Part shown: positions 24,857 to 26,201 of the stretch, piece after piece
Layout: each line of letters starts with the position of its first letter
Position numbering within the stretch: the stretch's first letter is position 1
NCBI GenBank assembly: GCA_012270875.1
Contig: JAAXHI010000367.1
Span: 1-37,797, forward strand
Direction of reading: 5' to 3'
DNA length: 37,797 nt
Origin: Candidatus Poribacteria bacterium
Lineage (GTDB): Bacteria > Poribacteria > WGA-4E > WGA-3G
Program-made: the position numbers and the translations under genes
The notes under the pieces: model-generated
Databases searched by the model: none
What the model was told of the DNA's origin: nothing
The model's input: only the letters and a program-made list of their open reading frames with translations

Positions 24857-25654
24857 TTATGGTGTCTTATCTACATGAAAACCGTGTTCTGTGAGCGTAG
24901 TAGATACAGATGTCCAAATGGATCGTGTTTGTTCAACAGCCTCGGTAGCCTCTGCTTTAGTGGCTCCTTGCATGTCCTCTGGGTAACGGGCTTCAACTGC
25001 CCATCGGGTCAAATCTGACAGGTCTGGATGCGTGGTTTTGAGTTGCCAACTCTCAGGCAGCAAATCCCGTAAAACATTCAAGTCATGTGTTCTCCGAAAA
25101 TCGATCTGTAAGAAAATTAATGCTGCTTTTAACGCCTTTTCAGCACTTTGTTGGGCAAACCAACAGACTTGGCGAGGCGGAACGTATGGATGCTCTAAGA
25201 AGATTTCAGCGGTTGTTAAGTCTTCCTCCGCATGGCGGAGCCAACGTGCGGTGTCTGCGAGTCTATCGGCTGTTTGCATAGAAGACTTTACCTCCTCGTT
25301 GGGTACGCCGCAGCATTGATCCGATCCGCGTGCGACCGCGTTCAAGTTCTTCCAAAGGATTTTACCTTCTTGTTGGGCATACCGCAGCACTGATCCGATC
25401 CGCGTGCGACCGCGTTCCAACTCTTCCGGTGTGGATACGATGATGTCCTTTGCCACAGGCACATCAGATAGTGCGCGCCTAATATCAATGGCAGTTTTCC
25501 GTTTATCCGCGAGTTCCGAGAAAACGACGATCAGGTCTATATCGCTATTTTGATCTGCATCCCCTCGTGCCTGTGAACCGAAGAGGATAATCTGTAGCGG
25601 GTCAAACTCACGCACAATGCGCTCCGTCATGATTGAGATAAATTCGTTATCCAT
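24857..25654 (-). CDS. Nucleotidyltransferase-HEPN fused ORF
   Basis: One 265-codon frame carries two proteins usually encoded as an overlapping pair. Residues 1-100 are a minimal nucleotidyltransferase (FGSQARGDADQNSDIDL, the GS...DxD motif). Residues 126-265 are a HEPN domain (TADRLADTARWLRHAEEDL, WFAQQSAEKALKA, RRTHDLNVL). Residues 101-125 (NLNAVARGSDQCCGVPNEEV) are a frame-shifted translation of a 74-bp imperfect repeat of the nucleotidyltransferase tail. The HEPN gene keeps its own start, ATG 25279, behind GAGGAGG, so both fused and free HEPN may be made. Such pairs form MntA/HepT-like toxin-antitoxin systems in which the transferase AMPylates and silences the HEPN RNase. Confidence 0.8.
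   Translation of the reverse strand: MDNEFISIMTERIVREFDPLQIILFGSQARGDADQNSDIDLIVVFSELADKRKTAIDIRRALSDVPVAKDIIVSTPEELERGRTRIGSVLRYAQQEGKILWKNLNAVARGSDQCCGVPNEEVKSSMQTADRLADTARWLRHAEEDLTTAEIFLEHPYVPPRQVCWFAQQSAEKALKAALIFLQIDFRRTHDLNVLRDLLPESWQLKTTHPDLSDLTRWAVEARYPEDMQGATKAEATEAVEQTRSIWTSVSTTLTEHGFHVDKTP
25290..25437 (-). repeat. 74-bp imperfect tandem repeat joining NT and HEPN frames
   Basis: Copies at 25290-25363 and 25364-25437 share the core GATCCGATCCGCGTGCGACC and match over about 64 of 74 positions, with roughly ten differences there. Both encode the end of a nucleotidyltransferase (ELERGRTRIGS...). In the native phase of the downstream copy, the frame would end in TAG overlapping the HEPN ATG. 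The 74-bp offset (3n+2) moves the upstream frame into the HEPN phase. Confidence 0.8.
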
Positions 25655-25734: not shown

Positions 25735-25974
25735 TCATGATAGTCCTACCCAGAACCATGTTACCGTATCCTCATTTAAGACACCAACTGCACGATAGCC
25801 ACGAGTGATTCTTACCGACCAAATGCTTTCCTTGCTATTAATACATTTGAAATGCAAAGAATTATGAAACGGGTTGGATATCCATAACCGATAAGCCTTC
25901 TTGGCTTGATTCTTAAGCGTTTCGTCAAGGGTTTGATAAGCTGTCCAAAACGAAGGTAATGTTACAGACTTCAT
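25735..25974 (-). CDS. RelE/HigB-like toxin with frameshifted C-terminus
   Basis: The 79-residue protein overlaps the antitoxin stop by ATGA. It matches the family along its length (LPSFWTAYQTLDETLKNQAK, NPFHNSLHFKCI, WSVRITRGYRAVGV, VTWFWVG), but ends abruptly at GLS. Shifting phase by one base restores the expected family ending YHDDYERFFG and then TGA at 25710-25712. So a one- or two-base indel seems to have removed the last ten residues. Loss of this segment probably weakens or kills the toxin. In the related toxin at 20507 the equivalent segment, WFWIGDHDGYMALI, is intact. Confidence 0.7.
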   Translation of the reverse strand: MKSVTLPSFWTAYQTLDETLKNQAKKAYRLWISNPFHNSLHFKCINSKESIWSVRITRGYRAVGVLNEDTVTWFWVGLS

Positions 25975-26201
25975 AGCCGATCCAAATCCATCGGTTCTGA
26001 TTTTCCTTCTGCAATTTCCTGTTTGGCACGACGAGCGGCCGCCATAAGTTGTTCTTGCGTTCTGTCAAAGGATGCGTTCCAGCGAAGTTCATCCTCTAAG
26101 TCTGCAATGTACTCACGCAGATGATCTACAATCTGATTCTGCAACGCCTCGGGCAGTGTTTCCATCATTCGGGTCATCGTGGTAATAGCATTAGAAGCCA
26201 T
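25971..26201 (-). CDS. Antitoxin-like helical protein, partner of the toxin
   Basis: The 76-residue protein starts at ATG 26201 after GGGAGG. The N-terminus is helical (MTRMMETLPEALQNQIVDHL). The C-terminal half, LEDELRWNASFDRTQEQL and MDLDRL, matches the solo gene at 29150 (LEDEQKWNKAFAESQGKL ... MDIDEL), so both belong to one antitoxin family. Its stop overlaps the toxin start (ATGA). Confidence 0.7.
   Translation of the reverse strand: MASNAITTMTRMMETLPEALQNQIVDHLREYIADLEDELRWNASFDRTQEQLMAAARRAKQEIAEGKSEPMDLDRL

Follow-up and report, generated by a model that had tools for sequence, protein, structure and literature searches.

A single open reading frame in which a nucleotidyltransferase (NTase) domain of the MntA type is joined to a HEPN domain occupies part of the window analysed here, a 37,797-nt contig (JAAXHI010000367.1) from Candidatus Poribacteria bacterium. 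The reading that we favour, with a probability of roughly 85%, is that of a genuine fusion of NTase and HEPN which originated when 74 bp at the 3′ end of the NTase gene were duplicated in tandem. Poribacteria are a bacterial phylum known from sponges. The features of the locus are listed below.

24857–25654, minus strand: fused NTase-HEPN ORF, 265 codons plus stop, open frame; kept in 32 distinct loci
25355–25654, minus strand: NTase (MntA-type) domain, residues 1–100; Pfam PF01909, E 4e-11
25354–25427, minus strand: repeat copy 1, the native NTase C-terminus, in frame; dN/dS 0.07
25280–25353, minus strand: repeat copy 2, frame-shifted and read as the linker WKNLNAVARGSDQCCGVPNEEVKSS; dN/dS 0.39 in the fused frame
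25291–25297, minus strand: Shine–Dalgarno (SD)-like GAGGAGG upstream of the internal HEPN ATG; predicted duplex -13.2 kcal/mol
24857–25279, minus strand: HEPN domain (PF05168), 140 codons, with its own internal ATG; E 7e-20
25263–25265, minus strand: TAG that terminates copy 2 in its native frame, 14 nt inside HEPN and out of phase with the fused ORF

One reading frame across a tandem repeat

Within the 265-residue product PF01909 (NTP_transf_2) spans residues 12–84 and PF05168 (HEPN) residues 137–250, both with scores above the Pfam cut-offs, and the Class II pair of a PF05168 HEPN with a PF01909 NTase upstream is present in the window as a single ORF. The GSX10DXD motif of the NTase is provided by G26, S27, D38 and D40. 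The NCBIfam model of the MntA antitoxin (NF047752) scores the window NTase at 35.9 bits, below its cut-off of 60; comparison with solved structures gave weak NTase matches only, and a scan of viral contigs returned one match to an NTase fragment and nothing relevant.

The junction between the domains consists of two adjacent head-to-tail copies of an exact 74-nt unit, identical at 62 of 74 positions (the repeat finder reported two 70-nt copies at a spacing of 74, 86% identical), and the 84% identity of the adjacent copies far exceeds what would be expected by chance. The sequence-only reading had recognised this imperfect repeat but placed it some 10 nt away from its actual position. Copy 1 encodes the usual NTase C-terminus EELERGRTRIGSVLRYAQQEGKIL, and the linker encoded by copy 2 runs directly into the HEPN ATG. 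In its native frame copy 2 reads LEELERGRTRIGSMLRRTQRGGKVFYANSR, still giving …RRTQRGGKVFYANSR, and then TAG; this stop is present as had been claimed, yet it begins 14 nt within HEPN and lies just inside that gene rather than overlapping its ATG. NTase residue 100 and the HEPN ATG lie 75 nt apart in the window as against 1 nt in relatives in which the two genes are split. The suggestion that an offset of 3n+2 carries the NTase into the HEPN frame holds, 74 being of the form 3n+2 and the outcome a single open ORF of 265 codons on the minus strand.

Protein searches returned ~30 full-length orthologues with 71–87% identity from two genera of the same family, and the sets compared here comprise 32 distinct fused loci in Poribacteria, a few of them cut by contig ends, and 11 split relatives. 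The same repeat is found, in varying states of decay, at the 31 fused loci other than that of the window. The inserts measure 44, 59, 71, 74 or 77 nt, always 3n+2, so that the linkers of the 32 fused loci (45, 60, 72, 75 or 78 nt) are without exception a multiple of three. Alignment with relatives carrying separate genes, which had been proposed as a check, showed that all 11 lack the insert: the HEPN ATG lies 1 nt after NTase codon 100, in a different frame, and the NTase stop overlaps HEPN. The window comes from a fragmented metagenome assembly (5.7 Mb, 597 contigs), a setting in which an assembly artefact or a missed base could make separate genes appear joined, the outcome that the sequence-only reading had named as fatal to the fusion. 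Because several fused loci lie on single-contig chromosomes (OX639992.1, OX638352.1, OY282386.1, OY282383.1 and G005), the fusion is not an assembly artefact; it recurs at 32 distinct loci in many independent assemblies and selection acts on the linker frame, such that error is excluded for the clade and its probability is negligible.

Stop codons are absent from the fused frame of the linker in all 32 loci but occur in 25 and 14 of the 32 in the other two frames. Differences were pooled over 13 pairs of relatives, the pairs being approximately rather than strictly independent, and gave a pS of 0.30 versus a pN of 0.14 in the fused frame (dN/dS 0.39, Fisher p 5e-7), compared with dN/dS values of 1.00 and 0.76 in the other two frames (Fisher p 1.0 and 0.15); by this measure purifying selection on the linker is confined to the fused frame. 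Constraint is strong in copy 1 and in the NTase (dN/dS 0.07 and 0.11 respectively) and less so in HEPN (0.29). Because none of the 32 linkers contains a stop in the fused frame, and purifying selection is seen in that frame alone, we read the gene product as the fused protein, with both domains encoded and maintained in one reading frame, as frame conservation and dN/dS by frame indicate from the sequence.

Several related loci show other arrangements. In one fused copy (L015, the same locus as L041) a TAG inside HEPN leaves 70 residues, the copy decaying at its HEPN end. A further set (L073, L074 and L076, also L075, L077 and L080–L083) carries a split-type NTase beside a HEPN that is truncated (~28–35 residues matched) or unrecognisable, as if HEPN had been lost first and the NTase retained. 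The window genome itself encodes two more single-ORF NTase-HEPN proteins (L002 on G000:C215 and L003 on G000:C396), ~33% identical to that of the window, which likely represent a separate fusion.

Origin of the repeat and exchange of alleles

We propose that the starting point was a two-gene HEPN/MNT module in which the NTase gene overlapped the HEPN ATG. In a single event in an ancestor of this Poribacteria group, the last 74 bp or so of the NTase gene would have been duplicated in tandem, and the 3n+2 length of the duplication would have moved the NTase frame into that of HEPN; copy 2 would then have been free to evolve as a linker of ~15–26 residues, while gene conversion from copy 1 would now and then have restored the likeness of the two copies. 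In a tree built from NTase residues 1–75 and HEPN, from which the repeat was excluded, 29 fused rows form a clade (97/93) within split outgroups. One locus, L061, falls outside the main fused clade with weak support; it and L057 both carry a fused-type linker, and a second origin or recombination is possible for these two. A single origin of all fused rows is not rejected against two (AU p 0.45), and the duplication probably occurred once. The linker type with a 77-nt insert, 3 nt longer, is scattered over the tree (L014, L016, L022, L033, L039, L040, L057 and L061), which suggests that the linker segment moves by recombination or that this type is the older form.

Comparison of the copies bears on where the repeat came from. 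Among the 32 copy 1s, the one nearest to copy 2 of the window is that of the window itself, and both contain the block CGCGGTCGC; in L025, L010 and L009 the locus's own copy 1 likewise ranks first for its copy 2, and in L006 it ranks second. Variants specific to a lineage are common to both copies in the window (CGCGGTCGC again), L006, L010 and above all L025, whose copies are 99% identical, and at other loci copy 2 has decayed to 53–65% identity with copy 1. The sequence-only reading had also allowed for recombination between two paralogous modules in place of duplication in cis. Unequal exchange would likewise leave a repeat at the junction, and recombination at the level of the module is seen at the syntenic site described below; nevertheless, import of copy 2 from a paralogous module is not favoured by the lineage-specific variants that it shares with copy 1 in cis, nor by the ranking of own copies in the window and in L025, L010, L009 and L006, and we consider it distinctly unlikely as the source of the repeat, with a small residual weight for a single unequal exchange long ago and conversion thereafter. 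An origin of the repeat in cis is the most likely, and the pattern fits an old duplication which was partly re-homogenised by occasional gene conversion, a fresh duplication being a possible alternative for L025.

As a process acting on the locus after the fusion, exchange between modules does have a place, swapping a fused for a split allele. Most fused loci and the split L027, L028, L029 and L064 adjoin the same DUF6807 gene, and at nearly all of them one and the same TIM-barrel gene forms the opposite flank; a tree of the flank places the split species among the fused ones, although a single clade of split species in that tree is not rejected (AU p 0.17). Between the split L027, L028 and L064 and the fused neighbours with which they share the syntenic site, sliding identity is ~90–94% across the initial 150 nt of the NTase gene, falls to 75–85% (mostly 75–80%) in the remainder of the module, between about nt 150 of that gene and the end of HEPN, and recovers to 84–90% downstream. 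Because this profile shows a replaced tract, recombination of modules has acted at the locus and exchanged alleles, and some species there carry a split allele that was put in place by recombination. Mere deletion of one copy of the repeat is not favoured as the source of these split alleles, given that a drop in identity followed by recovery fits a replaced tract. At a single other locus, the split L058 beside the fused clade, the NTase has an end of the copy-2 type (AAGGAGATAAAATCCGCT before the ATG) and looks to have re-split from a fused parent through recombination between the copies that deleted one of them. Directly upstream of the fused gene in the window lie a ParE-like toxin gene (PF24732) and a 76-aa partner (25735–26201, minus strand), a pair that is present or absent at the same site among related species.

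Internal HEPN start and putative function

The HEPN gene was correctly said to retain GAGGAGG (25291–25297) and its own ATG (25277–25279), which would permit a dual output, free HEPN from the internal start being added to the fused protein without replacing it. The ATG is kept in 27 of the 32 fused loci, the others having ATA (L018, L024, L026 and L056) or GTG (L057), and the predicted SD duplex of the window is the strongest among fused loci. In loci with the ATG the predicted pairing tends to be stronger than in synonymous recodings (median fraction of recodings as strong 0.16); in 25 of these 27 it at least equals that of the median recoding, and loci without the ATG have weaker predicted pairing. 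Against this, no single locus is significant relative to its recodings (best fraction 0.088) and the loci share ancestry, the SD-like tract came with the duplicated end of the NTase gene, and the ATG has been lost at four loci or more. Dual output is thus a tentative proposal with the odds against it; many species may produce free HEPN, which is dispensable in at least four and so not needed in all. An unlikely extension of it is a switchable putative toxin–antitoxin (TA) system, in which gain, conversion and loss of the repeat together with recombination of modules would toggle the locus between fused and split states, the fused state yielding both fused protein and free HEPN.

The fused product itself would be one chain that combines an NTase of the adenylyltransferase type with a HEPN of Class II at a fixed 1:1 stoichiometry. 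By analogy with the characterised Class I system HepT/MntA, the NTase would modify and restrain HEPN, perhaps at the tyrosine of an ARYP motif and either in cis or within an oligomer, a regulatory mechanism to which we would give even odds; within it, the NTase would nucleotidylate the attached HEPN, probably at the ARYP tyrosine. The GSX10DXD motif is present in the window and nearly all relatives, in fused and split forms alike, and both forms have the HEPN motifs RTHDL and ARYP. Y224 of ARYP is invariant in a 21-row alignment, its equation with the Class II tyrosine (PMC7641770) being an assumption. The labels ‘toxin’ and ‘antitoxin’ are inferred, and the PF05168 class of HEPN still needs validation as a TA system (PMC7641770). 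A serious rival, somewhat unlikely in our view, is a domesticated fusion in which HEPN has become a substrate-binding domain of the NTase and is a toxin no longer. In HEPNs joined to MNTs the catalytic residues are typically missing, and such HEPNs are unlikely to be active (PMC3710099); no fused or split member has RX4HXY in its HEPN, and HEPN evolution is somewhat faster in the fused than in the split form (dN/dS 0.23 versus 0.15 over the first 282 nt). However, the split relatives also lack RX4HXY and have the same RTHDL and ARYP motifs, so that no loss is visible on fusion.

Relation to known systems and significance

A covalent link between such partners had been thought unusual, a view that is not supported. 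Because MNT fusions of HEPN-T (PF05168) have been recorded before (PMC3710099) and, of the PF05168 matches listed for this bacterial family, nearly all lie in frames of ~250–300 codons, including all three in the window genome, the fused architecture is known and ordinary here. Compared with the recorded MNT fusions, the domain architecture is identical, but in the present case one can see split relatives, the duplication that fused the genes and a relative that has apparently re-split, and the HEPN motif residues are unaltered by fusion. The fused gene resembles the Class II HEPN/MNT systems (PMC7641770) in its Pfam pair, gene order, GSX10DXD, conserved tyrosine and lack of RX4HXY, and differs from them in forming one chain with a linker derived from an out-of-frame duplicate of the NTase end. 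With HepT/MntA of Shewanella oneidensis (PMC7641770), a Class I, type VII TA system, it shares a GSX10DXD NTase encoded upstream of HEPN; unlike that system, it has PF05168 rather than PF01934/DUF86, lacks RX4HXY, is fused and is known from sequence. EzeT of E. coli (PMC4826407) also unites toxin and antitoxin on one chain and is thought to be a fused two-gene operon, although its domains are unrelated, EzeT being a zeta-type UDP-N-acetylglucosamine kinase. A narrow literature search found no precedent for gene fusion by out-of-phase duplication.

What is new is the traceable mechanism of fusion and the natural comparison of fused and split forms, and not the fused architecture. Gene fusions are usually visible only as finished products. 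Here the fusing step, the erosion of the repeat, an apparent reversal, and a syntenic locus with both fused and split alleles are all preserved among related species, such that the DNA itself records how a fused protein came about. The natural pairs, which differ mainly at the junction, offer a test of what follows from tying a putative toxin to its modifying enzyme, be it for stoichiometry, for activation or for the loss of one partner.
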